A stretch of DNA of 64,000 bases from Candidatus Methylomirabilis sp. (GTDB lineage: Bacteria; DYJV01). The translations under genes and the position numbers were made by a program. The stretch is from positions 1 through 64,000 of the forward strand of contig DYJV01000001.1 in assembly GCA_020722945.1 (NCBI GenBank). The letters run 5' to 3'. Shown piece by piece: positions 18,685 through 39,845 of this stretch (position 1 is its first letter; every line of letters begins with the position of its first letter). The notes under the pieces were generated by a model. The model was not told the DNA's origin. It did no database searches and saw nothing but the letters and a program-made list of their open reading frames with translations.

Positions 18685-19055
18685 ATCTCAAAATGAAAAT
18701 TATTGTTGTGGATGATTTTGCAACAATGAGAAAAATTATCAAAAATATTCTTAGACAAATTGGATTTACAAATATTCTTGAAGCAGATGATGGTTCTACT
18801 GCTCTTCCGATATTGGAGAAAGAGAATATTGATCTTGTAGTTACAGACTGGAATATGCCTAAAATGAGTGGATTAGAACTTGTTAAAGCTATAAGGTCAA
18901 ATCCCAACCTTAAAAATATCCCTGTTCTAATGGTTACAGCAGAAGCTCTTAAAGAAAATATTATAGAAGCTGTTAAAGCAGGTGTTAACAACTATGTCAT
19001 AAAGCCTTTTACAGCACAGACATTGCAGGAGAAGATAGAAAAGATATTTGGATAG
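18675..19055 (+). CDS. cheY: CheY-like single-domain response regulator
   Basis: Chemotaxis response regulator that, when phosphorylated by CheA, binds the flagellar switch. The acidic pocket VVDDFATMRKI, phospho-acceptor Asp58 in VTDWNMPKMSG, the conserved Thr in VTAEA and the Lys in VIKPF are all present, and there is no output domain. The sequence is close to canonical CheY. The ATG at 18675 follows GAGAGGTAAAA and overlaps the bioA stop; an internal ATG at 18693 is an alternative. It lies 6.5 kb from cheA, before the receiver-HATPase gene. Confidence 0.9.
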   Translation: MPLDLKMKIIVVDDFATMRKIIKNILRQIGFTNILEADDGSTALPILEKENIDLVVTDWNMPKMSGLELVKAIRSNPNLKNIPVLMVTAEALKENIIEAVKAGVNNYVIKPFTAQTLQEKIEKIFG

Positions 19056-19242
19056 TAGTTTAAATAGACTTGAGCTATCCTTTGTTCTTAAAAAATTTTT
19101 TAAATTCTATTTTATTGATATTAAATATGAATAATTTACCATTTTCTATATTTTTAACATATAGGGCTAAACAATTAAAAATATATATCGATCTTATTTT
19201 GATAAATATAAATATAAATAGAAAATTTATAGGAATTAATTT

Positions 19243-22824: not shown

Positions 22825-23446
22825 TATTTTTGAACAATATTATCAAAAATATGATAAATGGTATGATGAAAAAAAATTTGTATACTTATCAGAACTTCAA
22901 CTCCTAAAAAAGGTTTTATCTCATGTAGAAGGGTTATCTTTGGAAATTGGGGTTGGAAGTGGTAGATTTGCCTCTGAGCTGAATATTAGATATGGATTAG
23001 AACCTGCTTTTAATGCTATTAAAGTTGCTTCATCAAGGGGTGTAATTTCTATATCAGGAGTTGGTGAATCATTACCATTTAAAGATAATTCTTTTGATTT
23101 AATTCTTTCACTTACTGTATTTGAGTTTGTAAATGATTTAGATACTGTTTTAAATGAGATAAGAAGAGTTCTTGTTGGGAATGGAATTTTGTTAGTTTCT
23201 ATTATTGATGCTGATTCTTTTTTGGGGAAAATATATAAAAGCAGTAGAGAATCTATATTTTATTCAAAAGCGAATATCTTTTCAGCTTCTGAACTTTTAA
23301 ATATTCTTAACTCTTCAAAATTTGAGGTTGTAGAAATTTATCAGACTCTTTTTAAAAAATTAGAGAAGATAGAAGAATCACAAAATTATAAAAAAGGTTT
23401 TGGTGAGGGTGGATATGTTGTTTTTAAAGCAGTAACTAAAAAATAG
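22814..23446 (+). CDS. SAM-dependent methyltransferase (Methyltransf_11 type)
   Basis: A 210-residue class I methyltransferase with motif I LEIGVGSGRFASEL, an acidic-position segment GLEPAFNAIKVA, the post-motif GESLPFKDNSFDLILSL and motif LNEIRRVLVGNGILLVSI. Small-molecule methyltransferases (BioC- or UbiE-like relatives) share these motifs; nothing in the sequence fixes the substrate. It overlaps dppC by 11 nt, suggesting translational coupling. A BioC role is possible because bioA lies 5 kb upstream, but this is a weak inference. Confidence 0.8.
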   Translation: MNRNIFEQYYQKYDKWYDEKKFVYLSELQLLKKVLSHVEGLSLEIGVGSGRFASELNIRYGLEPAFNAIKVASSRGVISISGVGESLPFKDNSFDLILSLTVFEFVNDLDTVLNEIRRVLVGNGILLVSIIDADSFLGKIYKSSRESIFYSKANIFSASELLNILNSSKFEVVEIYQTLFKKLEKIEESQNYKKGFGEGGYVVFKAVTKK

Positions 23447-23516
23447 TTTTATTTTTTTTATCTTTGTTGTATTTAGATTCTAATAAATAAAATTTATAAA
23501 TTTGGAGGGAAGATAG

Positions 23517-23693
23517 ATGGATGATAAGTTTGTTGAAGCTATTAAAGATTTTGCAAAAAAAAATGATAACAAAATAACTTGTTCAGATGCGTGGTCTTTA
23601 GCTGACAAATTTTTAGTCAAAAGGTCAGATATGGCTGATTTATTGACTAAATTAAATATAAAAATTATAAAATGTCAATTAGGTTGTTTTTAA
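23517..23693 (+). CDS. 58-residue winged-helix-like protein ending in a CxxxC motif
   Basis: Short gene, MDDKFVEAI at the start and KCQLGCF at the very C-terminus. GGAGGGA lies 8 nt before the ATG, an excellent ribosome site. The middle (TCSDAWSLADKFLVKRSDMADLLTKLNIKI) reads as a helix-turn-helix-like stretch. The terminal C-x-x-x-C could bind a metal or an Fe-S cluster. It is followed 15 nt later by the NifU/IscU-like scaffold gene, so an Fe-S-linked role is plausible. I do not recognise a named family with certainty. Confidence 0.75.
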   Translation: MDDKFVEAIKDFAKKNDNKITCSDAWSLADKFLVKRSDMADLLTKLNIKIIKCQLGCF

Positions 23694-23708
23694 TAAAGGT
23701 GATTTGCT

Positions 23709-24101
23709 GTGAACGAAGAGAAGCTAATGAAATATTTTTTAGAAGCTAAAGATCTTGGAGTGATAGATGAACCTACTACGGTTGGAATTGGGGGGGACCC
23801 TGGTTGCACAGATTACATAAAGATATACCTAAAAATAAGCCAAAATGATATTATAGAAGATGCAAAAGCTCAAGTGTTTGGCTGTCATGTTGCGGTTGCT
23901 TGCACAAGTGCCTATTTGCAACTTATAAAGAACAAAAATATAAGAGATGCGGTAAATATAAAGTCAAAAGATGTTGTGAAAGAAGTTGGTGGTCTCTCTG
24001 ATAAGAAAACGCATTGTTCAGAATTAGGACCTTTAGCTCTTGAAAATGCAATTTCTGATTATTTAATTAATAAATTATATGCAACTCAAGAAGATTCTTG
24101 A
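23709..24101 (+). CDS. IscU/NifU N-terminal-type iron-sulfur scaffold protein
   Basis: A 130-residue homologue of the Fe-S cluster assembly scaffold. Its three cluster-ligand cysteines sit in the expected contexts: GGDPGCTDYI, VFGCHVAVACTSAYLQ and KKTHCSELGPLALENAI. A fourth cysteine follows the second motif. No cysteine desulfurase, ferredoxin or HscA/B genes are adjacent. Its partner appears to be the preceding 58-residue protein. The start is GTG at 23709 with AAAGGTGA upstream. Confidence 0.85.
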   Translation: MNEEKLMKYFLEAKDLGVIDEPTTVGIGGDPGCTDYIKIYLKISQNDIIEDAKAQVFGCHVAVACTSAYLQLIKNKNIRDAVNIKSKDVVKEVGGLSDKKTHCSELGPLALENAISDYLINKLYATQEDS

Positions 24102-24126
24102 TTTTATTTTCAATATAATTTATAAT
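24098..24126 (+). promoter_or_regulatory. Promoter upstream of pgi and the cheA operon
   Basis: TTGATT (24098-24103), 17 bp, TATAAT (24121-24126). The -35 box overlaps the NifU-like stop codon. Transcription would begin near 24133, leaving a 28-nt leader with AAAAGGAAG before pgi. Confidence 0.65.
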
Positions 24127-24160
24127 TATAATATATTTTTTTAAAAATTAAAAGGAAGCT

Positions 24161-25495
24161 ATGAAAATAAAGATTGATTACAATTTTTGTATGGAAGATA
24201 TCATAGGTAAAGATGGGATATCACAGAAAGAAATATCCAAATTATCCCAATCTACAGAAGAAGTTCATAAAAAAATTATTAAAGAGAGAGATAATGATAT
24301 TATTGGTTTTTACAAATTACCTTTTTTAGATTGTAAAGATATTAAAAATAAAGCAAAAATTTTTCGAGAAAATTATAAAACTTGTGTCCTGATTGGAATA
24401 GGTGGTTCAGCATTAGGGGCAAATGCTATTTTTACTTCATTGTCAAAATTTTTTGATAATAGACTTTTTATTATTGATAATGTTGATCCAGATATATTTT
24501 ATGAATTGATCGATAAGATAAATATCAAAGAAACTTTTTTTGTTGTAGTTAGTAAATCTGGTGGCACAGCAGAAACAATCAGTAATTTTTTGGTTTTTCG
24601 AAAGTATTTGATTGATAATCTTGGTTTTGAAGAGTATAAAAAGAGAGTTGTTATAATTACTGACTCTAAAAAGGGACCACTTAGAGAGTTAGTTTTATCT
24701 GAAAATTTAGAAAGTTTCTCTATCCCTGAAAATGTTGGGGGAAGATTTTCAGTTTTATCTGCTGCTGGGTTGTTTCCTTTAAGTTTTGTTGGAATAGATA
24801 TAGAGCTAATCCTTGAAGGTGCAATATATATGAGTAATATCCTCCAAAATGATAATATTTTTGAGAATCCATCATATCTTCTTGGCTCCATACACTATTT
24901 AGCGTATCATAAAGGTAAATCTATAAATGTTTTTATGCCATATTCCTCTAAGCTACATAAAATTGCTGATTGGTTTATCCAACTATGGGCAGAAAGTCTT
25001 GGGAAAGAGCTTATAGGGATTACACCTCTCAAAGCAATTGGAGCTACTGACCAGCACTCTCAGTTACAGCTTTTTATGGAGGGTTCAAAAGATAAGCTCG
25101 TTACTTTTATTCAGATTGAGAAATTTAAAAATGATATACTGATTCCAGAGCAAGATATAAGTTCCAAATATAAATATCTGTTTAATCATTCTATGGGAGA
25201 GTTACTTAATAATGAGTGTAATGCTACTAAGGCTGCTCTTGCTATCAATGGTATTATGAATTATACTATTTTGCTTGAAGACCTAAATCCATTTATATTG
25301 GGAGAGTTACTTTTTATGTTTCAGGTGATGACTCATTATACAGGATATTTATTTGAAATTAATCCTTTCAATCAGCCAGGGGTTGAATTAGGTAAAGAAT
25401 TTACCTACTCTATAATGGGAAGAGATAATTATGCAGAAAGACATCATGAGTATCTTAATTTGATAAGCAGAAGTAAAAAAGAGTATATCTTATAG
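24161..25495 (+). CDS. pgi: Glucose-6-phosphate isomerase
   Basis: Interconverts glucose-6-phosphate and fructose-6-phosphate. The bacterial-type 444-residue form shows VLIGIGGSALGA, VVVSKSGGTAETI, the PGI signature region VGGRFSVLSAAGLFPLSF, and the catalytic segment GATDQHSQLQLFMEG. The C-terminal lysine lies in NQPGVELGKEFTY. It is followed after 13 nt by cheA, so it heads the presumed chemotaxis/chaperone transcription unit. Confidence 0.95.
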   Translation: MKIKIDYNFCMEDIIGKDGISQKEISKLSQSTEEVHKKIIKERDNDIIGFYKLPFLDCKDIKNKAKIFRENYKTCVLIGIGGSALGANAIFTSLSKFFDNRLFIIDNVDPDIFYELIDKINIKETFFVVVSKSGGTAETISNFLVFRKYLIDNLGFEEYKKRVVIITDSKKGPLRELVLSENLESFSIPENVGGRFSVLSAAGLFPLSFVGIDIELILEGAIYMSNILQNDNIFENPSYLLGSIHYLAYHKGKSINVFMPYSSKLHKIADWFIQLWAESLGKELIGITPLKAIGATDQHSQLQLFMEGSKDKLVTFIQIEKFKNDILIPEQDISSKYKYLFNHSMGELLNNECNATKAALAINGIMNYTILLEDLNPFILGELLFMFQVMTHYTGYLFEINPFNQPGVELGKEFTYSIMGRDNYAERHHEYLNLISRSKKEYIL

Positions 25496-25508
25496 TCCGG
25501 AGTATTTT

Positions 25509-28500
25509 ATGAATGATGAGTTTTCAGAATTTTTTTCTGATTTTTTAGTTGAAGCAGAAGAGCATATAACCAATATAAATAATTACCTATTAGAGATAGA
25601 AAGTCAGTTTAAGCAGGGAGAAGAGACCAGTTATGAGAGAATAAATGCTATTTTTAGAGCTGTTCATACTATAAAAGGCCTTTCTGGAATGCTTGGTTTT
25701 GAACCTCTTCAAAAACTTGCTCATGCTATGGAAGATCTTATGGGTGAAGTTAGAGAAGGAAAGAAAAAGCTTTCTGAGCCTATATTTAATATTCTTTTTT
25801 TATCTTCTGATCGGATAAATCAGATGTTAGAAGAGATTAAGCTAAAAGGTTCTACTACTACTTCCCCTGACGATATTGTTAATAATTTAAGAGAAATAAT
25901 AAGTAATAACATTGAGAAAAAAGAATCACCATCTCCAGAGTCTATAAATCTTGATTTTATTGATTTTAAAATCCCTATTGATGATTTAAAAATTACAGAG
26001 ATAGAGAGTGCTCTTTTAAGAGATGTAATTAGTAAAGATTTAAATGTTTTTATGGTAGTTAAAGAGATTGCAGGTGGAATTTCAGAGGATAAATTTAATA
26101 AACTGCCAATATTTAAAGATATAGATAATTGTGCTGACCTAATATTATATAGACCCACAATAGAAAATATTATATTATCTAAAAAAGACTCTATTTTTTG
26201 TTACTTTATATTTTCATCAAATGAAAGTTTTGATACTATCAAAGATAAATTTTTTGATGAGATAAAAGTTTTGAGAGTCTCTCTTAATTTAGATAATAAA
26301 AAGATTCAGGAGAGTAAAATGGCTGAAGAATCAAATTTTGAAGTATTCAGATTAAAGGATGCAGGTTTTGATGAATCAATAGTTGCAGAATTTTTTGAGG
26401 AAGTTGATGAGCTCGTAGAAAGTCTTGATATGAATCTTCTTGAGCTTGAGAAATCTCCTCAGGATTCAGAAACATTGAATGCTATTTTTAGAGTTGCACA
26501 TACGATTAAAGGTGCATCTTCAATGTTTGGGTTTGAACCTATTGTTAAGCTTACCCACTCTATGGAGAATCTCTTTGATAACCTTAGAAAAGGTTCTTTG
26601 ATTGTTAACTCACAGATTATGGATATATTTTTTCAAGGGGTTGACCTTTTAAAATCGATGCTCTCCTCTTTAAAAAATAAAGGGATAATAGACCAAAATT
26701 TTATCCCTATTGTAAAAAATATTAATGATATACTCAACAATAAAGGGGGATCTATCCCATCATCAAAAAGCGAAGCTGATATTTCTGAGGTAAAAGATAG
26801 TAGTAAATCTCTAAATTCTTCTAATGGACTTGACATTGATCTTGACCCAGAGTTTTACAATGCTCTTTCGGAAAAAGAGATAAATTTCATTGGTGAGGAG
26901 ATAGCGAAGGGGAATTATATATATGAAGTTGATATTATCTACCCTCAAGATGTTTTACAGACAACCTTTAAGCCATTTGAGGGATTGTTTACCGGAATAG
27001 AAATAGTTGGTGAATTGATATCTGTTTTACCTGATATTGGTAAAGTTCCTGAACTTTCAGATTACGACATAGAGAAATTTTACATTTCATTAAAAGTTAT
27101 AATATCATCTAATCTTTCATTTGAATCTTTTAAATCAATGCTTGCAGGGTTTTCCGATACAATGGAGATGAATTTTAAAGAATTGAATAAGAGAAAAGAT
27201 GACCATATAAAAATGATGAATATCGAAGATAAAAAAGATATAAAAATTCAAAATTCTAAACCTCAGGAGCCAATTATTGTGAAACAAGATAGTCCAATAT
27301 TAAAACAGGAGGCTCCTTCAGATTCACAAGGGAAAGATAAAGCTGATTCCTCCGCTTCTAAAAAATCTGGAGCTAATACAATAAGAGTGGATTTAGAGAG
27401 ACTTGATAAATTGTTAAATTTAGTCGGAGAATTTGTTATTGATAGGACAAGATTTGCACAAATAAGTCAGGAGCTTAGAGAAAAATTCCCGCATGATCCT
27501 CTAATTGTTCAATTGAATGAAACCAACCAGATATTTGGTAGACATATGAATGAGATACAAGAAGTCATAATGAGTGTCAGGATGATACCTATTGGCAATA
27601 CTTTTAACAAATACCCAAGAATAGTGAGAGATTTAGCAAAAGATAGTGAAAAGGAGATAAATCTTGAAATAAGTGGGCAGGAGACAGAACTTGATAAAAC
27701 TCTTGTTGAGGAGATAGGTGACCCTTTGGTTCACTTGATAAGAAATGCCATTGATCACGGAATTGAAAAGCCTGAGGAGAGAATAAAAAAGGGTAAACCT
27801 AAACAGGGCACAATTAAGCTTTCAGCTCATCATGAGGGTAACCATATTGTAATTACAATATCAGATGATGGCAATGGAATTGATACAGAGAGAGTGAGGT
27901 TAAAAGCTATTGAGAAGGGTTTGATAAGGGAAGATGACAATATGTCTAAAAAAGATCTTCTCAATCTTATTTTTGAACCTGGTTTTTCTACGGCTGCTAA
28001 GGTTACAAACATAAGTGGACGTGGTGTTGGTATGGATGTTGTAAAGAGAAATATCTCCAAGTTAAAGGGGATTGTTGATATTGATACATTTGTTGGTCAG
28101 GGCACTACAATAAAAATTAAATTACCGTTAACTTTAGCTATTATTCAGGTTTTAATGGTTCAAGTTGCAAGTGAAATATTTGCTATTCCTCTTCCATCTA
28201 TTATTGAAACAATAAGAATAGCAAAAAATGAGATACAGATAATAGAAAACTATGAAATGATTACATTGAGAGATTCTGTATTGCCTATTGCAAGAATTAA
28301 AGATATTTTTGAGTTAGATGATAAATCAAATAAAGGCTCCCTTTCTTATAATAATGAACTTGAACTTGATGAAAGTGGAAAATATTTTATTGTTATTGTA
28401 GGACTTGCAGAGCAGAGAGTTGGTTTGATAGTTGACCGTCTTATTACCCAGCAAGAGGTAGTTATTAAATCTTTAGGAGCTCTGCTCAAAAATTCCCGAG

Positions 28501-28604
28501 GTATTGCTGGAGCAACTATACTTGGTAATGGTAAAGTTGCACTTATTTTAGATATTGGTGAAGTTATAGAAGGTCTTAAAAGTATTGGAGTTGCAACTTT
28601 TTAG
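25509..28604 (+). CDS. cheA: Chemotaxis histidine kinase CheA with two Hpt/P2-like modules
   Basis: A 1031-residue chemotaxis kinase, much longer than the 650-700 of standard CheA. Hpt1 has phospho-His53 in RAVHTIKGLSGMLGF and Hpt2 has His331 in VAHTIKGASSMFGF. Each is followed by a P2-like domain, near 165-265 and 445-560, the second with YEVDIIYPQDVLQTTFKPFEGLF. The P3 dimerisation helices begin near 620 (IRVDLERLDKLLNLVGEFVIDR). The HATPase has the N-box HLIRNAIDHGIE (His742) and GRGVGMDVVK. The CheW-like P5 domain occupies the last 140 residues. cheW and a STAS gene follow directly. cheR and cheB are absent from the window. Confidence 0.95.
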   Translation: MNDEFSEFFSDFLVEAEEHITNINNYLLEIESQFKQGEETSYERINAIFRAVHTIKGLSGMLGFEPLQKLAHAMEDLMGEVREGKKKLSEPIFNILFLSSDRINQMLEEIKLKGSTTTSPDDIVNNLREIISNNIEKKESPSPESINLDFIDFKIPIDDLKITEIESALLRDVISKDLNVFMVVKEIAGGISEDKFNKLPIFKDIDNCADLILYRPTIENIILSKKDSIFCYFIFSSNESFDTIKDKFFDEIKVLRVSLNLDNKKIQESKMAEESNFEVFRLKDAGFDESIVAEFFEEVDELVESLDMNLLELEKSPQDSETLNAIFRVAHTIKGASSMFGFEPIVKLTHSMENLFDNLRKGSLIVNSQIMDIFFQGVDLLKSMLSSLKNKGIIDQNFIPIVKNINDILNNKGGSIPSSKSEADISEVKDSSKSLNSSNGLDIDLDPEFYNALSEKEINFIGEEIAKGNYIYEVDIIYPQDVLQTTFKPFEGLFTGIEIVGELISVLPDIGKVPELSDYDIEKFYISLKVIISSNLSFESFKSMLAGFSDTMEMNFKELNKRKDDHIKMMNIEDKKDIKIQNSKPQEPIIVKQDSPILKQEAPSDSQGKDKADSSASKKSGANTIRVDLERLDKLLNLVGEFVIDRTRFAQISQELREKFPHDPLIVQLNETNQIFGRHMNEIQEVIMSVRMIPIGNTFNKYPRIVRDLAKDSEKEINLEISGQETELDKTLVEEIGDPLVHLIRNAIDHGIEKPEERIKKGKPKQGTIKLSAHHEGNHIVITISDDGNGIDTERVRLKAIEKGLIREDDNMSKKDLLNLIFEPGFSTAAKVTNISGRGVGMDVVKRNISKLKGIVDIDTFVGQGTTIKIKLPLTLAIIQVLMVQVASEIFAIPLPSIIETIRIAKNEIQIIENYEMITLRDSVLPIARIKDIFELDDKSNKGSLSYNNELELDESGKYFIVIVGLAEQRVGLIVDRLITQQEVVIKSLGALLKNSRGIAGATILGNGKVALILDIGEVIEGLKSIGVATF

Positions 28605-28627
28605 ATAAAAAAAGGGAGGGTATTTAA

Positions 28628-28963
28628 GTGGATATTAAAAAAAATGTAGAAGGTAGTATTTTTATAATTCAAATTGATGGGAATCTAATTCTTTCTGATC
28701 TTAAAGAGGCAAGAGATTTTGTAAAAAATTGCATTGATAACGAAAATGCTACCGAAATAATTTTTAATCTTGATAATGTTGATTTTATAGATTCTGCAGG
28801 TATAGGTTTTATTGTATCTGTTTTTAAATCTATAAAATCGAGAAATGGTAAATTTGGACTTGCATGTCTTAAATCAAAGCCTAAAGAAGTCTTTAAACTG
28901 ACAAGGCTTGATAAAATTATCCCTATTTATGATAATGTAGAGAGGGCAAAGCAGGAGCTTTAA
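28628..28963 (+). CDS. STAS domain anti-anti-sigma-like protein
   Basis: A 111-residue single STAS domain (SpoIIAA/RsbV type). The phosphorylatable serine lies in FIDSAGIGFIVSVFK near residue 58, preceded by the typical IIFNLDNVDF strand. Such proteins are phosphorylated on this serine by RsbW-type kinases; the HATPase of the 19.2-kb gene is the obvious candidate partner. The start is GTG at 28628 with AAAGGGAGGG upstream. It sits between cheA and cheW, an arrangement that suggests a link between partner switching and chemotaxis signalling. Confidence 0.88.
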   Translation: MDIKKNVEGSIFIIQIDGNLILSDLKEARDFVKNCIDNENATEIIFNLDNVDFIDSAGIGFIVSVFKSIKSRNGKFGLACLKSKPKEVFKLTRLDKIIPIYDNVERAKQEL

Positions 28964-28964
28964 G

Positions 28965-29462
28965 ATGATAGAGGAGAATATAAATAATCTTTTAAAGAGT
29001 GAAGATTTTGAGACAAAGATTAAATTTGATAATAGGGTTCAGATGGTTGGCTTCAAACTTGGCAATGAAGAGTATATGGTTGAAATCAATAAAATCCGTG
29101 AGATTATTATGACTGCTGAAATTACCTATGTGCCAAGAGTTTCTGCTTACTTTGAAGGAGTTATAAATCTTAGAGGTCGAATAGTCCCTATAATAAATCT
29201 CAGAAAGAAGTTAAATATGCCCATTCAGGAAATTACCAGAACTACAAGAATTTTAATTATGGAAATACTTGATATGAGTGTAGGTTTTATTGTTGATAGA
29301 ATTACTAAGGTTATTATTATTCCTGAAAAAAATATAGATGCTACACCTACAACTTTTGGAAGTATTGCTGCAGAGTTCATAACTGGAGTGGGAAGATTTG
29401 AAAACAAAATAATTGGGTGGATAAATGTAGAAAAAATAATTGAAGATTGCATGGTAAAATAA
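28965..29462 (+). CDS. cheW: Chemotaxis coupling protein CheW
   Basis: A 165-residue SH3-like adaptor that links chemoreceptors to CheA. Recognisable segments are VGFKLGNEEYMVEINKIREI, the core VSAYFEGVINLRGRIVPIINLRKKL, and VGFIVDRITKVI. Its start is 2 nt after the STAS stop codon, and its stop codon overlaps the ATG of the Hsp70-like gene (TAATG), so all three are translationally coupled. Confidence 0.93.
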   Translation: MIEENINNLLKSEDFETKIKFDNRVQMVGFKLGNEEYMVEINKIREIIMTAEITYVPRVSAYFEGVINLRGRIVPIINLRKKLNMPIQEITRTTRILIMEILDMSVGFIVDRITKVIIIPEKNIDATPTTFGSIAAEFITGVGRFENKIIGWINVEKIIEDCMVK

Positions 29463-30904
29463 TGGAGGTTGTTTTAGGAATAGATTTTGGAACAACTAAT
29501 TCAGTTGTTGCAACATTTATTAATAACCAGCCAGCAATCATAAAAAATAAAGATGGCAATAATATTACACCTTCTGTCGTATCTTATTCTAAGGATAAAG
29601 CCTTATTAGTAGGGGATTCAGCTAAAAGGCAGATAATTATAAACCCTGAAAATACAATCTCATCAATTAAACGCTTTATTGGAGATAAAAAAAAGTTTAA
29701 AGTTGGGAATGAATTTTTATCTCCTCACGAAATTGCTTCAAAGATATTATCATATATAAAAGAATCTGCTGAAGCTTTCTTTTCTACTCAAATTTCAAAA
29801 GCTATTATTACAGTTCCTGCATATTTTACAAATAATCAGAGAAATCTTACAAAATTAGCGGGTAAATTAGCTGGTCTTGATGTCCTTAGAATTTTGAATG
29901 AACCTACTGCTGCTGCTCTTTCATATGGGTTTGATAACAATTTTAAAGGGAATATTATGGTTTTTGACTTTGGTGGAGGAACATTTGATGTTTCTATACT
30001 TGAAGTTGAAGATGGTGTTTTTGAGGTAAAATCTACAGCAGGCAACAATTTTTTAGGTGGAGATGATTTTGATTTTAGAGTTGTTAATTTATTAATTGAT
30101 GATTTTAAATCTAAATACAATATTGATTTAAAAAATGACAAAATGGCATTTCATAAAGTAAAAGAGCAGGCAGAGAAGGCAAAGATATCCTTATCTACAA
30201 GTAAAGAAGTCTTTATAAACATCCCTTTTATCTCTGCAGATGAGAATGGAGTTAAACATTTAGAATATTTATTGACTATAGAGGAATTTGACAAAATAAC
30301 AGAAGATTTAGTTGATCAAACATTGGTATGTGTAGAAAATGCATTAAAAGATGCTTCTATGACCCCTGCAAATATTGATAATATAATATTTGTCGGTGGC
30401 TCAACCCAAATAAAGCAATTTTCTGATAAAATTTATCAATTTATGGGGAAACATCCTGAAAAAAATATTAACCCTATGTTTGCTGTTGCTATGGGAGCTG
30501 CTATACAAGGTAATATAATTGCAGGGGATAAGAAAGATATAGTTTTACTTGATGTAAATTCCCTTACTCTTGGTGTTGAGACAAAAGGGAATATATTTGT
30601 CCCTATAATAAACAGATGCACTACAATTCCTGTAAGGGAGAGTAGGCTTTTTACTACTGTGAGGGATAATCAAGATAGCGTCAACATAAATATTTATCAA
30701 GGGGAAAGCAATGATTGCTCATATAACTCTTTTATTGGGGCAATACAATTAACAAATATCCCTCCTCAACCTAAAGGTGTGCCCAGAGTAGAAGTTATTT
30801 TTGATATAGATGTTGATGGAATACTTAATATCTCTGTTATAGATCAAAAAAATGGTTGTAAGCAGGATATGACTGTTGATAATTGTTTTTTGGAGAGTCT
30901 ATAA
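29462..30904 (+). CDS. Short Hsp70-like chaperone without the helical lid
   Basis: Hsp70/DnaK homologue of 480 residues. The nucleotide-binding domain is complete, with GIDFGTTNSVV, NEPTAAALSYGF, FDFGGGTFDVSILE and FVGGSTQI. A beta-sandwich substrate-binding domain follows (LTLGVETKG, then DVDGILNISVIDQ). The sequence stops there, so the alpha-helical lid and C-terminal tail of standard 610-640-residue DnaK are missing. The likely start is the ATG at 29462, overlapping the cheW stop; an upstream in-frame ATG at 29447 lies inside cheW. The next gene encodes a J-domain protein, its probable co-chaperone. No grpE is seen. Confidence 0.88.
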   Translation: MEVVLGIDFGTTNSVVATFINNQPAIIKNKDGNNITPSVVSYSKDKALLVGDSAKRQIIINPENTISSIKRFIGDKKKFKVGNEFLSPHEIASKILSYIKESAEAFFSTQISKAIITVPAYFTNNQRNLTKLAGKLAGLDVLRILNEPTAAALSYGFDNNFKGNIMVFDFGGGTFDVSILEVEDGVFEVKSTAGNNFLGGDDFDFRVVNLLIDDFKSKYNIDLKNDKMAFHKVKEQAEKAKISLSTSKEVFINIPFISADENGVKHLEYLLTIEEFDKITEDLVDQTLVCVENALKDASMTPANIDNIIFVGGSTQIKQFSDKIYQFMGKHPEKNINPMFAVAMGAAIQGNIIAGDKKDIVLLDVNSLTLGVETKGNIFVPIINRCTTIPVRESRLFTTVRDNQDSVNINIYQGESNDCSYNSFIGAIQLTNIPPQPKGVPRVEVIFDIDVDGILNISVIDQKNGCKQDMTVDNCFLESL

Positions 30905-30910
30905 TATATA

Positions 30911-31834
30911 ATGAATAGAGAACAATATTATACATGCTTAAAAACTTTGAACCTTGACAATAGTGCTTCAATAGAAGACATCAAAAGAGCATATAGACTT
31001 TTAGTGAAGAGATACCATCCAGATATTGCAGGGAAAAGTGAATTCTGTGTTAATAAATTTAGAGAAATTACTAAGGCTTACAAGATATTACTGAATGAAA
31101 GAATAGATGTTTCATGTGAAACTAATAGTAGGAATTTTGCTTCTATTGTAAATAACCTTTTTTTGAAAAATTTAAATCTTAATAATTGTTTGTCCATTTT
31201 TAAAAGGAGTAGAAAATTTGAAGATGTTAAGTTTGACAAACTTTTTCTAAAAGAGGTTGACTCGTCAGTTCTATCTTTGGGTGAGGATGAGCTTATTTTT
31301 AGGTTAGAAGGGAGTGCAAACCTCTATGTTATGGTTGAAGCAGTAAAAGGATTATATAAGATTGCTTCTTTAGATGCTCTTATTGCAATAGTCAGTAATT
31401 ATTATAAATACAGTAAAGATTTAAAACTTTTTGTATCTTTCCTTACCAAAAAAAAGATTGATATTATATCTCAGTGGCTAAATGAAATGATATTTTACGA
31501 TAACTATAATATTTTAATATCAGTGTTATCTTATCTTTACAACATCAATGAGGATATTAAAGAGAGAAAATTAATAAAAAATTTTATAAGTGATAATATA
31601 GGTTTACTTAAATTTGAAGCATCAAAATTTTCTATTATATATAAGGGTGTTTTTTCAAGTAATGAGTTAAAATTTGGTGAAAAGTTGCTTTTTTCAAAAA
31701 AGATAGATGACCAGCAGCTTGGTGTTGCTCTTGGAGTTAAAAAAAAATTCAGCAATGTAAAGATAGGGAAAATTTTTGTAGATCTTGGATTTTTAACTTA
31801 TAAAGAGCTTGAAGAGATTTTAAAAGATAGATGA
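30911..31834 (+). CDS. J-domain protein with helical-repeat body and MshEN-like C-terminus
   Basis: A 307-residue protein. Residues 5-62 form a J-domain with the HPD tripeptide at 36-38 (KRYHPDIAG). Residues about 110-255 are helical; a stretch such as ELIFRLEGSANLYVMVEAVKG resembles HEAT-type repeats. The last 40 residues (KIGKIFVDLGFLTYKELEEIL) resemble the MshEN/GspE N-terminal motif of LGE-L--G-I---L--AL form. No zinc-finger or DnaJ C-terminal domain is present. Placed 6 nt after the lidless Hsp70, it is probably its dedicated co-chaperone that presents a specific client. The HEAT and MshEN resemblances are by eye. Confidence 0.75.
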   Translation: MNREQYYTCLKTLNLDNSASIEDIKRAYRLLVKRYHPDIAGKSEFCVNKFREITKAYKILLNERIDVSCETNSRNFASIVNNLFLKNLNLNNCLSIFKRSRKFEDVKFDKLFLKEVDSSVLSLGEDELIFRLEGSANLYVMVEAVKGLYKIASLDALIAIVSNYYKYSKDLKLFVSFLTKKKIDIISQWLNEMIFYDNYNILISVLSYLYNINEDIKERKLIKNFISDNIGLLKFEASKFSIIYKGVFSSNELKFGEKLLFSKKIDDQQLGVALGVKKKFSNVKIGKIFVDLGFLTYKELEEILKDR

Positions 31835-31859
31835 TCCTATAAACTTAAAAAAGGTTAAT

Positions 31860-33242
31860 ATGAAAGTAGGATTTTACAATTTTAATTATAAAAACAGTAA
31901 TTTTGAAGTTTATAAAATAAAAGATATAGATGAATTGCAAAAAAAAGATATTGATTACCTTTTTATTTTTGCTGATAATGAACAAGAATTTCAAAATATA
32001 TTGTCAAAATTATTTACTCAATCTTTAGAAGTAAAGTTTATACCTATATTAGAAAGAAAAAACCTTAAATTAATATCAAAATTTCTTTCTATGGGAGCAG
32101 TTACATTTATTTCTGAACCTTATGTTGAGAATATTGAAAAGAATTTATTACTACTTTCCAAGATAGATAAGCCTGAAAAACTTTCACCTTTTGTTGAAGA
32201 ATTTGAAGGTATTATTGCCAAAAGTAACAAGATGTTTGATGTTTTTAGCACAATTAAAAAAGTTGCAAATAGTAGTTCTACTGTTTTGATAACAGGTAGT
32301 AGTGGGACTGGTAAAGAGCTTGTTGCTAAAGCACTTCATAATAGAAGTAGCAGGCGTGATAAACCTTTTGTTCCTATCAATTGTGGTGCTATCCCTGAAA
32401 ATTTATTGGAGAGTGAATTATTTGGTTTTGCAAAAGGTTCTTTTACAGGTGCAAACTCAAATAAAGTTGGTAAATTGCAAATTGCAGATAAAGGGACACT
32501 ATTTCTTGATGAGATAGGGGAAATGCCACTGCAGTTACAGGTAAAGTTATTAAGATTTCTTCAAGAAGGTGAAGTCCAGCCGATTGGTTTTGATAAACCT
32601 ATAAAAGTAGATGTAAGAGTCGTTGCAGCTACAAACAAAAATTTAGGAGTTCTTATAAAGAATAAACTTTTTAGAGAGGATCTCTTCTTCAGACTGAATG
32701 TCATACACATTGACCTTCCTGATTTAAAAGATAGAGATGGTGATATCATGCTTCTTGCTGAATATTTTTTTAAGAAATTTACCAAAAAAAATCAGAAAGA
32801 GGAGCTTCTTGATGGAATCTCTGATGAAGCTATCTATATTATGGAAAATTACAGTTGGAATGGGAATGTCAGAGAGCTTGAGAATACAATAGAACGCCTT
32901 GTTATTCTGAAAGATTCTGGCTCTATACTCCCTTCAGATTTGCCTGCAAGATTTTTTGATAATTTTGATGATAGTGCAGAGTCTCTTGCTATTAGAAACG
33001 AGGATAATGATTTAGAATCTTTATCTTCAGATAGAAACTTCGAGGAGAAAGAATATCTTAATTCTATAATAAAAATTAGCAATGAGGGGATTGATCTTAA
33101 CAATATAATTGAAAATCTTGAAACCAATCTTATTATTCAGGCATTAGAAAAAGCTGGAGGTGTAAAAGAGAAAGCAGCAAAACTCCTTAATATTAAAAGG
33201 ACTACACTAATTGAAAAATTAAAACGTAAAAATCTTATGTAA
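31860..33242 (+). CDS. Sigma-54-dependent transcriptional activator (degenerate receiver)
   Basis: A 460-residue NtrC-family enhancer-binding protein. Residues 1-105 have receiver-like size but lack the aspartate pocket and phospho-acceptor. The AAA+ domain has Walker A ITGSSGTGKELVAKALH (Lys152), the sigma-54 contact loop as GSFTGA at 193-198, Walker B TLFLDEIGEM and RLNVIHIDLPDLKDR. The C-terminal Fis-type HTH is EKAAKLLNIKRTTLIEKLKRK. A sensor-independent or protein-protein regulated activator is likely, as in FleQ/FlrA-type flagellar regulators. A second such gene lies 2.5 kb downstream. Confidence 0.92.
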   Translation: MKVGFYNFNYKNSNFEVYKIKDIDELQKKDIDYLFIFADNEQEFQNILSKLFTQSLEVKFIPILERKNLKLISKFLSMGAVTFISEPYVENIEKNLLLLSKIDKPEKLSPFVEEFEGIIAKSNKMFDVFSTIKKVANSSSTVLITGSSGTGKELVAKALHNRSSRRDKPFVPINCGAIPENLLESELFGFAKGSFTGANSNKVGKLQIADKGTLFLDEIGEMPLQLQVKLLRFLQEGEVQPIGFDKPIKVDVRVVAATNKNLGVLIKNKLFREDLFFRLNVIHIDLPDLKDRDGDIMLLAEYFFKKFTKKNQKEELLDGISDEAIYIMENYSWNGNVRELENTIERLVILKDSGSILPSDLPARFFDNFDDSAESLAIRNEDNDLESLSSDRNFEEKEYLNSIIKISNEGIDLNNIIENLETNLIIQALEKAGGVKEKAAKLLNIKRTTLIEKLKRKNLM

Positions 33243-33250
33243 TCGAAATA

Positions 33251-35812
33251 ATGAGAAAAACTTTATATATATTTTTTATTTTATCTCTATCTACTCTTAT
33301 ATATTCAGCAAATCTAAATTATCTTTTAGATATAAAATACAGAGATTTTCCTGATAAAAAATTTGTAAGATTGGTTTTATACCTCTCCACGCCTCCACTA
33401 TTTCAAGAGATAAAAAAAAAAGACCCATATAATGTTGAGATAGTTTTAACTGATACAGATATAAAAAAATTTTATGGTAATCTAAAAATCCCATCTCAAT
33501 TTATAAACGAAATATCTACAACTCAAAATAAGAAAAATTTAGTAATAAATATAAATCTAAAATCTGAAATAGTTGAATGGAGTCATATAAAATCAGATGC
33601 CCCCCCATTACTTTATATAAAAATAAGCACTAAAGATGCCAAAACACTTGAACCAAATAATATTGAAGACAACGGAACTTTACAAAAGTTTGACAATGCT
33701 ACCCCAAAACAGCTACCACCTTCTCAAAAAATTATTCAAGACAATAGTTCAAAAATAGTAAAAAGAGACAATTTAACCAAACTTCATTCAGCGATAGATA
33801 ATGGAACAATTTTGGATAATAAAAGTTCACAGATTAAACAAGATAAAAAGATTGAAGTTGACGAGAATATTTTAAAGATAAAGATTGATGAAGCAAGAAA
33901 CTTTTATAATAAAGGTTTACAGCTTATGGCAGAAAAAAAATATACAGAAGCTATAGATATCTTTGATTATAATGTAAAAAATAGTGACAAAACAAATCCT
34001 TTTAATTTTAAGTCGAGATATAGGATAGTTGATTGTGTATATTATAATGGTGATCCAAAAGATGCAAAGTTGTATATGAGTTTAGTGAGGGAGTATATTG
34101 ATTTGATAAGTAATTATCCTGACAAAGATGAGACTGGTTGGGCAGCTTTTCAACTTGCTAATTGCTATAAAAAAATGGGTTTCTTTGAAGAAGCATTAGG
34201 AAGCTACAAATATGTAATTAAATATTTCCCCGATTCTGAATATAAAGTCAATGCATCTATTGAGGAGGGGAATATACTATATTTATTGAAAAAATATCAA
34301 GATGCACTTAATAGTTACAAAGAGTTACTCACTAAATCGCCAGATTCTGTAATTGGGAACAACCTTAGATACCTCATTGGGAACTGTTTATATGAATTAA
34401 AAAAGTATAATGAAGCGAAAAATATTTACGAAGAAGCTCTCAAAAGGGATACTACTTTTGCGGATAAAAGCCCAGAAATGCTTTATAATATTGCAAATAC
34501 CTATTTTTATCTAAAGAAGTATACTGTTGCAAGGGAGTATTTTATGAAAATAAGAAATCTTTTCCCTAATAGCAACTATTTTGACCTATCTCTATTAAAA
34601 ATAGGGGAGACATACCTCCAAGACAAAGATTATAATTCTGCTCTATATATATTCAAAAGAGTTGTTGATGCTACTGAAAATACTGATAATATTATAGTTG
34701 CAAGACTTGAAATGGCAGATATTGGACTTGAAAAAAAGATAAAAGATAAAGATGTATATGAAAAATATAAAAATTTCTTAGATCCTGATACTGCATATAA
34801 TTATATTATAAATAATTATGGCAACAATGAACTTGTCCAGATTGCTATGTCAAGGTTGATAAACTACTATTTAGACCAGAGTAGAAATAATGATGCGTTG
34901 ATCTATCTTGAAGAGTTTTATTCAAGATTTCCTGAAAGCAATATCAAGCAAAAAATGGATGAAAAGATGTTGTTAGCATTAAATAAGTATATTCTTGATT
35001 TATTTAAAGTTTACGATTATGGGAAAGTGATATACTTTTATGAAAAATATAAAAATAGCTATTTAAAAGAGTTTAAACCTCTTGATGTGTATAAAGCTAT
35101 CTTTTTATCCTACAAAAATCTTGATTTAAGTGGCCAAGGTCGAGATATATTAGAAAATTTATCAGCTAAATATAATAATGACCCTGACATTCAGTTTGAA
35201 TTAATTGAAGATAGTTATAAAAGTAAAGCTTATAAAAAAGTTATCCTTGAAGCTGGAAAATATTATCAAAAATATCCTGAATCAAAAAAGATTAATAGAG
35301 TTAAATTTTATGAAGCATTATCGTATAAAAATCTTAAAAATTATCAGAAAGCGTCAAATATACTCTTTGATTTATTAAAATCTGATATTGTTAATGAGGA
35401 TAAAGGGAGAGATGTTTTTTATCTTGCAGAAATATTTAGAGAAACAGGTGATTATGAGAATGCTTTAAAGCTTTACTCAACTGTTACAGAAAATTATAAT
35501 GAGGAAATTTTAGGGAAAAATATAATTAAAGATTCATATTTTTATGCGGGGTATATGAAATATTTATTGAAAAATTATCAAGATGCTGTTAATGATTTCA
35601 CTAATTTTAGAAATCTTTATCCTGAACATCATCCAGATGAAGTTATTTATTATATAATAAGTAGCTTTGCTAAAAATTCAAAATATGAAGAAGCACTCAA
35701 TTTTTTTGAAAATAATAAAAATAATTTTAAAAATGAAGCTTTTTTAAAATTATCATCTGAAGTTATAGATAATATTAAATGGAGTCAAAAGTTAAACCTT
35801 GATGGAAAATAG
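33251..35812 (+). CDS. Exported AMIN-like and TPR-repeat protein
   Basis: An 853-residue protein with a signal peptide (hydrophobic 4-17, cleavage near IYSA-NLN). Residues about 25-130 resemble an AMIN peptidoglycan/envelope-targeting domain (KFVRLVLYLSTPP ... VEIVLTDTDI). A charged linker follows to about 210, then an array of roughly 14 or more TPR-like repeats (for example YKKMGFFEEALGSYKYVIKYFPDSEY and YQDAVNDFTNFRNLYPEHHP) to the end. It is probably a periplasmic or outer-membrane scaffold. It is sandwiched between the two sigma-54 activators and overlaps the second by 11 nt. Confidence 0.8.
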   Translation: MRKTLYIFFILSLSTLIYSANLNYLLDIKYRDFPDKKFVRLVLYLSTPPLFQEIKKKDPYNVEIVLTDTDIKKFYGNLKIPSQFINEISTTQNKKNLVININLKSEIVEWSHIKSDAPPLLYIKISTKDAKTLEPNNIEDNGTLQKFDNATPKQLPPSQKIIQDNSSKIVKRDNLTKLHSAIDNGTILDNKSSQIKQDKKIEVDENILKIKIDEARNFYNKGLQLMAEKKYTEAIDIFDYNVKNSDKTNPFNFKSRYRIVDCVYYNGDPKDAKLYMSLVREYIDLISNYPDKDETGWAAFQLANCYKKMGFFEEALGSYKYVIKYFPDSEYKVNASIEEGNILYLLKKYQDALNSYKELLTKSPDSVIGNNLRYLIGNCLYELKKYNEAKNIYEEALKRDTTFADKSPEMLYNIANTYFYLKKYTVAREYFMKIRNLFPNSNYFDLSLLKIGETYLQDKDYNSALYIFKRVVDATENTDNIIVARLEMADIGLEKKIKDKDVYEKYKNFLDPDTAYNYIINNYGNNELVQIAMSRLINYYLDQSRNNDALIYLEEFYSRFPESNIKQKMDEKMLLALNKYILDLFKVYDYGKVIYFYEKYKNSYLKEFKPLDVYKAIFLSYKNLDLSGQGRDILENLSAKYNNDPDIQFELIEDSYKSKAYKKVILEAGKYYQKYPESKKINRVKFYEALSYKNLKNYQKASNILFDLLKSDIVNEDKGRDVFYLAEIFRETGDYENALKLYSTVTENYNEEILGKNIIKDSYFYAGYMKYLLKNYQDAVNDFTNFRNLYPEHHPDEVIYYIISSFAKNSKYEEALNFFENNKNNFKNEAFLKLSSEVIDNIKWSQKLNLDGK

Positions 35813-37202
35813 TGTTGTAATCATAAATAACAATCTCAAGACTCTGGAGCAATTCTCTGAAATAATAAAAGATTTACAGTTCAAGCCTCTCCTTTTTCAC
35901 GATGTTGCAGAGGGTTTAAAATACATAGAACGTAGCACCCCATATCTATTAATTACAGATATATTTTTCAGTGAGTATAGTCCTGAAGAGTATTGGAAAA
36001 TCTTAAAATCATTAAGTGTTGCACCTATCCTAATTGTATCAGATAAACCTTCAAATGAATTTGGTCCTAATATGATTCGTGATGGTGCGATCGATTATTT
36101 ACTCACTCCTATAGAAAGAGAGCAGATAAGGTTTATATTTGCAAAATTAAAATTAAAGGAGAAGAGGGATAAATTTATTCACAGGCAGTTTATCACAAAT
36201 AATGCTAAAATGTTAAAAATTCTTAAAGTTGTTGAAGTTGCTGCTAAAAGTAAATCCACTGTCTTTATAAGGGGAGAAAGCGGAGTTGGTAAAGAGTTGA
36301 TTGCAAGAATGATTCATGAAAAGAGCAATAGGAGTAATGGACCATTTGTTGCTGTTAATTGTGCTGCACTACCTGAAAATTTATTAGAAAGTGAGTTGTT
36401 TGGCCACGAAAAGGGGAGTTTTACAGGAGCAATAAATACAAAGCTTGGTAAATTTGAATTAGCAGATACAGGAACAATATTATTGGACGAGATTACTGAG
36501 ATGAGTTTTCCACTTCAAGCAAAACTATTAAGAGTGCTCCAAGAGAGGGAGATAGATAGAATAGGTGGAAGAGAGCCTATCAAAATTGATATAAGAGTTA
36601 TTGCTACTACAAATAGAGATATAAAGAAGATAATAGATGAGGGGAATTTTAGGGATGATCTTTATTACAGATTAAATGTTATCCCTGTCCTAATTCCACC
36701 ACTTAGAGAGAGAAAGGATGATATCTCAATACTTGGAAAATTTTTTATAGAAAAGCATTGTATGCTCAATCAGATACCGGTTAAATCAATATCTGAGTAT
36801 GCAATAAAGAAATTGCAGGAGTATGATTGGCCCGGTAATGTAAGGGAGCTTGAAAATATTATTGAACGAGCCGTAATTGTAACTATTGGTAATATAATTG
36901 ATCAAAATTCTATATTTTTTGAAGATGATATAGAGAGTATTTACGATAATGATATCCAAACAGAACAATGCACCAATACAGATTTGGACAACCAATACCA
37001 AATTCCACACAATAGTAATCAGCAGGGTGGTATCTCTATAAAACCTGGAACAACTATCTCAGAGATGGAGAAAAAACTGATTGTTGAAACATTAAAATCG
37101 GTCAACCTAAACAGAACTCTTGCGGCAGAATTACTTGGGATAACTGTCAGGACATTGAGAAACAAATTAAATGAATACAAAGAGTTTGGAATAATTTTAT
37201 AG
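35802..37202 (+). CDS. Sigma-54-dependent transcriptional activator (second)
   Basis: A 466-residue NtrC-family activator. The N-terminal receiver keeps an aspartate in LLITDIFFSEYSP but has INNNL in place of the acidic pair and LTP in place of the conserved KP lysine, so phosphorylation is doubtful. The AAA+ domain shows GESGVGKELIARMIH (Lys near 164), GSFTGA, TILLDEITEM and DWPGNVRELENIIERA. The Fis-type HTH is NRTLAAELLGITVRTLRNKLNEY. The ATG at 35802 is preferred over a TTG at 35799; it overlaps the TPR gene by 11 nt. Confidence 0.92.
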   Translation: MENSVVIINNNLKTLEQFSEIIKDLQFKPLLFHDVAEGLKYIERSTPYLLITDIFFSEYSPEEYWKILKSLSVAPILIVSDKPSNEFGPNMIRDGAIDYLLTPIEREQIRFIFAKLKLKEKRDKFIHRQFITNNAKMLKILKVVEVAAKSKSTVFIRGESGVGKELIARMIHEKSNRSNGPFVAVNCAALPENLLESELFGHEKGSFTGAINTKLGKFELADTGTILLDEITEMSFPLQAKLLRVLQEREIDRIGGREPIKIDIRVIATTNRDIKKIIDEGNFRDDLYYRLNVIPVLIPPLRERKDDISILGKFFIEKHCMLNQIPVKSISEYAIKKLQEYDWPGNVRELENIIERAVIVTIGNIIDQNSIFFEDDIESIYDNDIQTEQCTNTDLDNQYQIPHNSNQQGGISIKPGTTISEMEKKLIVETLKSVNLNRTLAAELLGITVRTLRNKLNEYKEFGIIL

Positions 37203-37227
37203 AATTTTGCGAGTATAAATCAACTAT

Positions 37228-39588
37228 ATGAATTTTAATAAATACAAAAAAGTTTCCAACCCTGTTCAGTATCTTGGACTTGATATAAATTCTGTTCATA
37301 AAAATTTCGATTCTGCAAAAGTTAAATTTTTACTTGCATTCCCAGATTTATACCAAATTGCCTCATCTAATCTTGGAACACAGATTCTATATAATATAAT
37401 CAATAAACATGAATATTACCTATGTGATAAAATTTTTGCTCCAGATGTAGATATGATGAATATGATATCTAATGGAGAATTACCATATCTATCTCTTTAT
37501 AGTAGAAGAGAAGCTTTAGACTTTGATATAATAGGATTCTCTTTGCAGTATGAGCTTAGCTTCACTACTGTTTTGAAGATGCTTGAGCTTATGGGTATTC
37601 CATTATATGCAAGGGATAGAGTTGGAGATGATTCTATTCCAATTATCTGTGCAGGTGGACCTGTTGTATTTAATCCTTTGCCTGTAGCCTCTTTTTTCGA
37701 TTTTTTCTTAATAGGGGATGGAGAGGAAGCTGTTATTGAGAAATGTGAAATTATAGATAGATATAAAGGATGTGGTAAAAGTAAAATAATAGAGGAGTTG
37801 TCGAAGATAGATGGTGTATATACCCCTCTTTCTAATAAAAAAATAGTTAAAAAAAGATTTATTACAAATTTTAAACCTGAAGATTCTATCTATAATCCGA
37901 TAGTTCCTTTAGCAAAAAGTGTTCATGAAAGGTGTGTTGTAGAGATATCAAGAGGTTGTACGAGAGGTTGCAGATTTTGTCAGGCAGGGATGATTTACAG
38001 ACCTGTAAGGGAGAAAAATATATTAGAAGTATTAAACACAGCCAAAGAATCTATAAAAAATAGCGGTTATGACGAATGTTCTATTTTATCTCTCTCTGTA
38101 GGTGATTACTCTCTGCTTGAAGAGTTGATTTTGGGACTTAAATATCTTGATTCATCAATTTCATTACCATCTATAAGAGCTGACAAAATTAATGACAATA
38201 TATTAAAAATTTTATCAGAGCGTGAAAGGACAGGTTTTACAATTGCACCTGAAGCTGGGAGTGAAAGATTAAGGGCAGTTATAAACAAAAATCTTACTGA
38301 GCAGGATATAGAAGAGTCTGTAACTTTCCTTTTCAAAAATGGGTGGAATCTTATAAAGCTCTACTTTATGATAGGGTTACCTTATGAACGATTTGAGGAT
38401 GTTGAAGATATTGTAAAATTATCTTTTAAAATTGCAAAAATAGGGAGGAGTTTCTCTAAAAACAATAGGATAAATGTCAGTATCAGCACATTTATCCCCA
38501 AGCCTCACACCCCTTTCCAATGGTTTGGACAAGAGAATATTGATTCAATTAAGAGTAAATTAAGATATCTGAAAGATTCTTTCAAAAAAGGTAAAAATAT
38601 AAATTTAAAGTGGCATACCCCTGAAATGAGCCTTCTTGAAGCTGTTTTGTCAAGAGGTGACCGAGATGTTGAGCGTATAATCTATGGTGCATACAAAAAT
38701 GGTGCATATCTTGATAGCTGGGGAGATAAATTTGATTATAAATTATGGGTTCAATCCTCTGATAGCGAACAATATTTACTAAATAAGATTGCAGAGAAAA
38801 ATTATCTTTTGGAAGATGAATTGCCTTGGGATTTTATTGATATAGGAGTATCTAAAGCTTTTTTAAAAAAGGAGTATCTACTTGCAGTTGAAGGGCTTCA
38901 AACCCCTGATTGTAGATTTGATAAATGCTCAGGGTGTGGTGTATGTAGTGGAGAGTTAAAAAATATATTTTCAGAGAAAATAGATAAAGAGCATCTTAAA
39001 ATTCATAATAATTTTATTACAAATAGCGTAGCAGATGATTATAAGAGAGTTATTTTTGAGTTTGAAAAGTTAGGGGCATCCTCATTACTTGGTCAGATTG
39101 ATACTACTAAGCTAATATTAAAGGGATTAAAAAACTCTTCAGCAAAGTATAAATATAGTGAAGGTTTTAAGCCAAAATTAAAAATTACTCAATCTCCACC
39201 TGCACCATTTGGAGTGGCGAGTAAAAGTGAATTTTTTGAAGTATATATTTCGCAATGTTCTGATTTTGATAAACTGGTAGAAGGTATGAATAAGTTTTTT
39301 TCTGGAATTATAGTTATAAAAAGTTATTTTGAGAATATTAACAAAATTAACCTTATGAGAGATGTAAAAGCTTCAGTTTATTCAGTAAAGATAGCTGCCC
39401 TTCCACCTATTGAAGATGAACTTATTGAATCTATAGAAAAAGTATCTGATAAGTTTTACATAAATATCAAATACTTAAATGGTAAGCATCTTAATATTAA
39501 GAAATTCCTTGATTCAGCTTTAAAAGATTTTATTTCCCCTGAAGAGATTGATTTAATAGAGATTAGAAGAGAAAAATTTATTTATTAA
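37228..39588 (+). CDS. B12-binding-type radical SAM protein fused to a DUF2344 domain
   Basis: A 786-residue fusion. Residues 20-190 resemble a cobalamin-type Rossmann domain. The radical SAM cluster is CTRGCRFC with Cys244, Cys248 and Cys251, followed by the SLSVGDY and FTIAPEAGSERLR segments of the TIGR03960 family. A cysteine group CRFDKCSGCGVC lies near residue 555. The C-terminal 200 residues match the DUF2344/TIGR03936 module (SSAKYKYSEGFKPKLKITQSPPAPFGV). In many bacteria this fusion precedes RNase E/G or ribosomal protein L21 genes, suggesting RNA or tRNA modification; those genes are absent here and the substrate is unknown. It ends the long plus-strand unit. Confidence 0.85.
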   Translation: MNFNKYKKVSNPVQYLGLDINSVHKNFDSAKVKFLLAFPDLYQIASSNLGTQILYNIINKHEYYLCDKIFAPDVDMMNMISNGELPYLSLYSRREALDFDIIGFSLQYELSFTTVLKMLELMGIPLYARDRVGDDSIPIICAGGPVVFNPLPVASFFDFFLIGDGEEAVIEKCEIIDRYKGCGKSKIIEELSKIDGVYTPLSNKKIVKKRFITNFKPEDSIYNPIVPLAKSVHERCVVEISRGCTRGCRFCQAGMIYRPVREKNILEVLNTAKESIKNSGYDECSILSLSVGDYSLLEELILGLKYLDSSISLPSIRADKINDNILKILSERERTGFTIAPEAGSERLRAVINKNLTEQDIEESVTFLFKNGWNLIKLYFMIGLPYERFEDVEDIVKLSFKIAKIGRSFSKNNRINVSISTFIPKPHTPFQWFGQENIDSIKSKLRYLKDSFKKGKNINLKWHTPEMSLLEAVLSRGDRDVERIIYGAYKNGAYLDSWGDKFDYKLWVQSSDSEQYLLNKIAEKNYLLEDELPWDFIDIGVSKAFLKKEYLLAVEGLQTPDCRFDKCSGCGVCSGELKNIFSEKIDKEHLKIHNNFITNSVADDYKRVIFEFEKLGASSLLGQIDTTKLILKGLKNSSAKYKYSEGFKPKLKITQSPPAPFGVASKSEFFEVYISQCSDFDKLVEGMNKFFSGIIVIKSYFENINKINLMRDVKASVYSVKIAALPPIEDELIESIEKVSDKFYINIKYLNGKHLNIKKFLDSALKDFISPEEIDLIEIRREKFIY

Positions 39589-39845
39589 TTGATTTTTTTT
39601 AATACTTTACAGTATGGCATCAAGTGGTAGTTATAAAAACTATAAAACCGTGAGAGGATAAAAAAGTGGAGTATTCTTGAATTAGGGTGTTTAGAGTTAT
39701 TAAATTTTAAGCTCTTTTCAAAGATATTTATTGTAATATTGTTTAATAGAATAATCTCTATTTTATCTCTAAAATTTAAACTATTTATCAGGTATCTATT
39801 TGTTATGCATTGGTTTTTTATTTTATAAGAAGATAGGGGGTAATG

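Follow-up and report, generated by a model that had tools for sequence, protein, structure and literature searches.

A lidless Hsp70 and an adjoining J-HEAT protein in a chemotaxis gene run of Candidatus Methylomirabilis sp., with related pairs beside flagellar genes in other phyla

The window analysed here, a 64,000-nucleotide stretch of contig DYJV01000001.1, contains a run of closely spaced genes (24161-39588), all on the forward strand and separated by -14 to +25 bp, in the order pgi, cheA, STAS, cheW, hsp70, J, sigma-54 activator, TPR, second sigma-54 activator, and radical-SAM. By Pfam, the CheA (25509-28604) contains two Hpt, P2, dimerisation, HATPase, and CheW domains, and it is followed by a single STAS-domain protein (28628-28963; Pfam STAS, 8.3e-21) and CheW (28965-29462; Pfam CheW, 1.2e-35). 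The cheW stop codon overlaps the start of the next gene, which encodes a 480-residue Hsp70 (29462-30904); TAA occupies 29460-29462 and ATG occupies 29462-29464, giving a one-base overlap with the junction TAATG. Only 6 bp separate the hsp70 stop codon from the gene for a 307-residue J-domain protein (30911-31834), a putative dedicated J-domain adaptor. Downstream of this pair, Pfam identifies an NtrC-type sigma-54 activator with a Fis HTH (31860-33242), a large TPR-repeat protein with a likely signal peptide (33251-35812), and the second sigma-54 activator (35799-37202). The N-terminal stretch of the TPR protein is weakly AMIN-like, its 18.8 bits falling under the Pfam cut-off for AMIN. A methyl-accepting chemotaxis protein with dCache, HAMP, and MCPsignal domains (39843-42518, forward strand; Pfam) lies 254 bp past the end of the run. 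In this AT-rich DNA, promoter and terminator scans scored no higher than on shuffled sequence, and their results were not used.

Other chemotaxis and flagellar features were observed in the window and its genome. The region 18675-20046 encodes a CheY-like receiver and a HATPase of RsbW type, which together with the STAS gene at 28628-28963 point to a partner switch connected with chemotaxis; a lone fliJ lies near uvrB (49036-49467), apart from other flagellar genes; and a second CheA, shorter than the one with two Hpt domains, is encoded on contig C156 near 22863-24962.

The original prediction, made from the letters of the window, held that an Hsp70 without a helical lid is coupled to cheW by TAATG, and both its coordinates and this description were borne out. 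The Pfam HSP70 match covers positions 1-498 of 599 (E 3.5e-170), indicating that the protein ends where SBD-beta ends; the nearest solved chain is the truncated Geobacillus DnaK 2v7y, which aligns over residues 2-473; and the 6 bp before the J gene leave no room for a lid. In the 2v7y alignment the ATP/phosphate motifs are kept (GIDFGTTN, SIKRFIGD, NEPTAAAL, and GGGTFDVSI), as are a VLLDV interdomain linker and a complete SBD-beta (aligned to residue 473). What is missing is SBD-alpha, a lid that is usual but not universal in Hsp70s, Ssz1 being an example without it. An insert of ~24 residues in the NBD is typical of Gram-negative DnaK; this insert is also absent from the window Hsp70, whose local matches to Gram-negative DnaKs mostly begin at residue 68-86. 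The lid loss is known from one genome, represented by one assembly with 5.79% contamination. No further lidless Hsp70 was found among 192 genomes; a 480-aa Hsp70 frame in one of them (G016) was considered as a second case and rejected, as it belongs to a canonical hrcA-grpE-dnaK set and is truncated where its contig ends.

The partner protein begins with a J domain (residues 11-63, 30941-31099) containing YHPD, with a Pfam DnaJ E value of 1.5e-13. It has no Pfam match to the DnaJ zinc-finger or C-terminal domains, confirming the predicted absence of client-binding domains, and it therefore belongs to class C, which comprises proteins with an HPD J domain and without the client-binding domains of classes A and B. 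The body that follows had been described as HEAT-like repeats. Pfam finds no HEAT match in the window protein itself, and the description is right by homology, since J-HEAT relatives match HEAT_2 (3.9e-19 and 9e-22). The conserved start of this body (residues 120-162, LGEDELIFRLEGSANLYVMVEAVKGL, 31268-31396) scored 23.3 bits against a profile made from the bodies of other J-HEAT proteins, with the window protein left out, compared with 6.2 bits for the highest of the 628 shuffles scored. Consistent with this, BLASTP against the J-protein of G080, one of the carrier genomes described below, gave 4e-13 over residues 1-150, well beyond the J domain. The predicted structure of the J-protein alone was all-helical, at a pLDDT of 42 that is too poor for a fold search.

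At the C terminus, the last ~60 residues (31652-31831) form the MshEN-like end that the original prediction had pointed out. Against a profile of 21 PilB/GspE N-termini, the last 60 residues scored 55.3 bits, with the best of 1000 shuffles at 8.3, although this score is somewhat inflated because the profile sequences were first found by their similarity to the window J-protein end. Thermus PilF was its only PDB match, and the end has matches in many genomes. The tandem 24-residue motif of the MshEN domain of pilus and type II secretion ATPases (PMC5013675) is present, with a 6-residue rather than a 5-residue spacer. In both motifs R is replaced by K and Q by K or R, and one G is replaced by K. 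We considered c-di-GMP sensing by this end and do not claim it: the motif is degenerate relative to that of PMC5013675 and lacks the binding residues, and with Arg and Gln replaced in both halves and one Gly lost, c-di-GMP binding is doubtful.

Elsewhere, the same genome has an ordinary hrcA-grpE-dnaK-dnaJ operon encoding a DnaK of 641-644 aa, so general folding is already covered, and the only grpE seen in the genome adjoins this canonical dnaK. The genome also encodes flagellin, flg clusters, PilB, and PilC. Two different flgK-flgL-fliW clusters occur in the one assembly (L181, on contig C133, and L182, on contig C85), one of them by CRISPR-type genes, and they represent either two flagellar systems or contamination (5.79%).

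We defined a J-HEAT family as proteins with a homologous body after the J domain and an adjacent Hsp70 gene, and the window J-protein has both. The J-HEAT profile identified 6 of 386 genomes sampled across the domain (the window genome, G080, G356, G120, G384, and G257), with a sharp score gap between these (E ≤9e-30) and proteins sharing only the J domain (≥1.5e-22). In the phylum of G120, all seven genomes examined matched, one of them only partly, at a contig end. An Hsp70 gene adjoins the J-HEAT gene in every neighbourhood read (G080, G356, G120, G384, G257, G387, and G386), and kinship labels together with phylum searches place the window, G080, G356, and G120 in four different phyla. A rare J-HEAT body with an adjacent Hsp70 in four phyla supports the predicted dedicated pair. 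The one other genome of the window's order (92% complete) carries a single DnaK, in two contig pieces, with no second Hsp70 and no J-HEAT body. In G120, no Hsp70 other than the partner of the J-HEAT protein (L146:5823-7535) was found at E ≤1e-60, although an ordinary dnaJ is present; the assembly may simply lack its canonical dnaK, or the genome may have none. As a separate observation, G017 (L141:5647-12853) and G164 (L142:5112-12183) contain another dedicated-looking Hsp70 cluster on one strand, comprising a protein of ~1330 aa, a GrpE-like protein, an insertless Hsp70 of 581-582 aa, and a zinc-ribbon/TPR-like protein, and both genomes also carry an ordinary dnaK operon.

The neighbourhoods of two relatives are flagellar. 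In G080 the order is fapA-hsp70-J-flgF-flgG-flgA-flgH-flgI-flgJ-flgN-like-flgK-flgL-fliW-fliC, in which flgF and flgG denote flgF/flgG-type rod genes, FapA and the rod protein were named by Pfam, and the others were read from sequence. In G356 the order is flhF-flhG-cheB-cheR-cheC-cheD, a membrane protein, a FliA-type sigma factor (fliA), and fapA, and then small genes, a galT-like gene, a fliK-like gene (a weak assignment, at 4.8e-4), hsp70, J, and comFB; the ComFB gene (L241:579-854) directly follows the J-HEAT gene. In the G120 phylum (at least two families), no motility genes were found beside the pair in the readable neighbourhoods, and no pilus genes were seen near any pair. Thus, with the window included, the pair is linked to flagellar or chemotaxis genes in three phyla, and the link is carried by only three loci. 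By our rough estimate, chance would place the pair by motility genes in 3 of 4 lineages with a probability of ~1e-4, a figure that assumes independent lineages and flagellar and chemotaxis genes making up 2-3% of a genome, and that counts the window that raised the question.

The relationships of the Hsp70s are less definite for the window protein than for the others. The pair-Hsp70s of G080, G356, and the G120 phylum, representing three phyla, form one clade with bootstrap 98. The window Hsp70 sits on a long branch that is compatible with this clade and not firmly placed: joining it to the pair clade was as good as any tree found (AU 0.59), and joining it to the DnaK of its own genome was 29 log units worse and not rejected (AU 0.106). 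Its family link therefore rests mainly on the J-protein and on gene order. A grouping with L049 in the tree was set aside, as it looks like a long-branch or composition effect. Two wider claims found no support in this comparison. One is that lidlessness defines the system: the related pair-Hsp70s, at 570-609 aa, retain the lid, so that its loss is a local change, observed in a single genome. The other is that the order cheW-Hsp70-J is conserved: apart from the window itself, the 29 closest CheA loci showed no neighbouring Hsp70, in views that reach only ~1.5 kb past the match, and the other genome of the order is without the pair.

We consider it probable, from gene content and order, that the two genes form a specialised Hsp70/J-adaptor system for the flagellar-chemosensory apparatus. 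Because a similar pair stands among flagellum genes in two other phyla, the chaperone probably serves only the assembly or operation of the swimming apparatus; the window pair's own link is to cheW and not to structural flagellar genes. In such a system, the J-HEAT-MshEN protein would dock on one complex of the apparatus via its helical body and MshEN-like end, and its HPD J domain would trigger ATP hydrolysis by the neighbouring Hsp70, whose motifs are intact. The Hsp70 would then grip an exposed client segment and be reset by the shared GrpE. As cited in PMC7083937, lidless DnaK has a lowered affinity, with on and off rates 10-100 times faster, and the window Hsp70 may likewise bind its client weakly and fast and cycle quickly. 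Weak, fast binding would suit a chaperone that repeatedly remodels or passes on parts which are partly folded or being assembled, better than one that refolds denatured protein or holds unfolded chains for long. The most likely clients would be flagellar export substrates (rod, hook, and filament subunits) or basal-body or regulatory parts; FapA or FliK, whose genes adjoin the pair in relatives, and perhaps CheA or CheW in the window genome, are further candidates. In Pseudomonas aeruginosa, a DnaK-FliC interaction is needed for flagella (PMC11816700). A fuller history, which we offer only tentatively, is that an old Hsp70/J-HEAT motility machine is spread across several phyla and that in this lineage the Hsp70 lost its lid and the J-protein gained an MshEN-like targeting end, leaving a lidless, ATP-active Hsp70 that remodels a motility complex.

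The original prediction had proposed a pilus- or flagellum-type machine. Its flagellar half is supported by two independent flagellar/chemotaxis loci, and its pilus half rests only on the MshEN-like end. A service to type IV pili, with this end binding the pilus ATPase or a partner and the chemosensory operon being of pilus type, seems to us unlikely. The end is indeed nearest to PilB/GspE N-termini, and the genome has PilB and PilC; moreover, DnaK1 of cyanobacteria is found with active pilus motors and couples these to the secretion of polysaccharide (PMC9239167), and StkA functions at a step between pili and the Dif chemosensory pathway (PMC4319316). However, the other J-HEAT proteins have no such end, the neighbours of the pair in G080 and G356 are flagellar, and none of the pairs has a pilus gene in view.

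The missing lid, complete SBD-beta, and cognate J partner also recall yeast Ssz1/Zuo1 (PMC7083937), in which case the lidless Hsp70 would sit in a stable heterodimer with the J-protein, as a co-chaperone feeding canonical DnaK and with no ATPase cycle of its own. We regard this as improbable, given that Ssz1 is unable to hydrolyse ATP and its linker is unusual (PMC7083937), while the motifs and VLLDV linker of the window Hsp70 are intact and the related pair-Hsp70s have lids. The explanation to which we give the least credence is that an ordinary DnaK paralogue without a special client lost its lid by decay and came by chance to lie in a chemotaxis operon. It would account for the long, loosely placed branch, for a lidless form seen once, and for the other genome of the order being without the pair, but it fits poorly with an intact reading frame and motifs, with tight coupling on both sides, and with a partner whose family accompanies an Hsp70 in four phyla and lies by flagellar or chemotaxis genes in two others. 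The specialised flagellar-chemosensory system is the reading we prefer.

Several known systems resemble the pair in part. Cyanobacterial DnaK1/DnaJ3 (Nostoc punctiforme and Synechocystis; PMC9239167) are likewise a specialised Hsp70 and J-protein beside an ordinary DnaK, working for a motility machine. The likeness to the J-HEAT pair is one of description: DnaK1/DnaJ3 serve type IV pili and polysaccharide secretion, and dnaK1 is flanked by grpE and dnaJ11, away from both its J partner and any che operon (PMC9239167). Myxococcus xanthus StkA and SglK are Hsp70 paralogues tied to motility (PMC4319316, PMC8265645), StkA being placed upstream of the Dif chemosensory proteins (PMC4319316), but stkA is followed by stkB and stkC (lipid-transfer-like and PhaE-like) with no J-HEAT gene, and a che operon is not reported. 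PilZ proteins carrying a DnaK or a DnaJ domain are also known from Myxococcus (PMC8316039). Yeast Ssz1/Zuo1, the ribosome-associated complex, combines an Hsp70 without SBD-alpha and its own J-protein (PMC7083937); in contrast to that complex, the window J-protein has a HEAT-like body. Shewanella AtcJ is a dedicated J-protein without client-binding domains that links Hsp70 to private partners, but it uses canonical DnaK, acts in cold adaptation, and has no Hsp70 gene in its operon (PMC6715715). A survey of DnaK duplication (PMC11019930) does not mention flagella or chemotaxis, and in the open-access full-text literature we found no report that places an Hsp70/J-HEAT pair in a flagellar or chemotaxis operon. 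The original prediction that no characterised system has this arrangement thus holds, in that literature, for the exact arrangement and not for function, where precedents exist (PMC9239167, PMC4319316, PMC7083937). We conclude that specialised Hsp70s tied to motility are already known from DnaK1/DnaJ3, StkA, and SglK, and that what is new is the rare J-HEAT family and the cross-phylum link of the Hsp70/J-HEAT pair to flagellar genes.

In bacteria, Hsp70 is mostly regarded as an all-purpose folding tool. If the pair accompanies flagellar and chemotaxis genes across phyla, it would provide a bacterial case of a client-dedicated Hsp70. It would also name a new actor in the assembly of the flagellum or of chemoreceptors, and the window Hsp70 would offer a natural test of how an Hsp70 acts without a lid.
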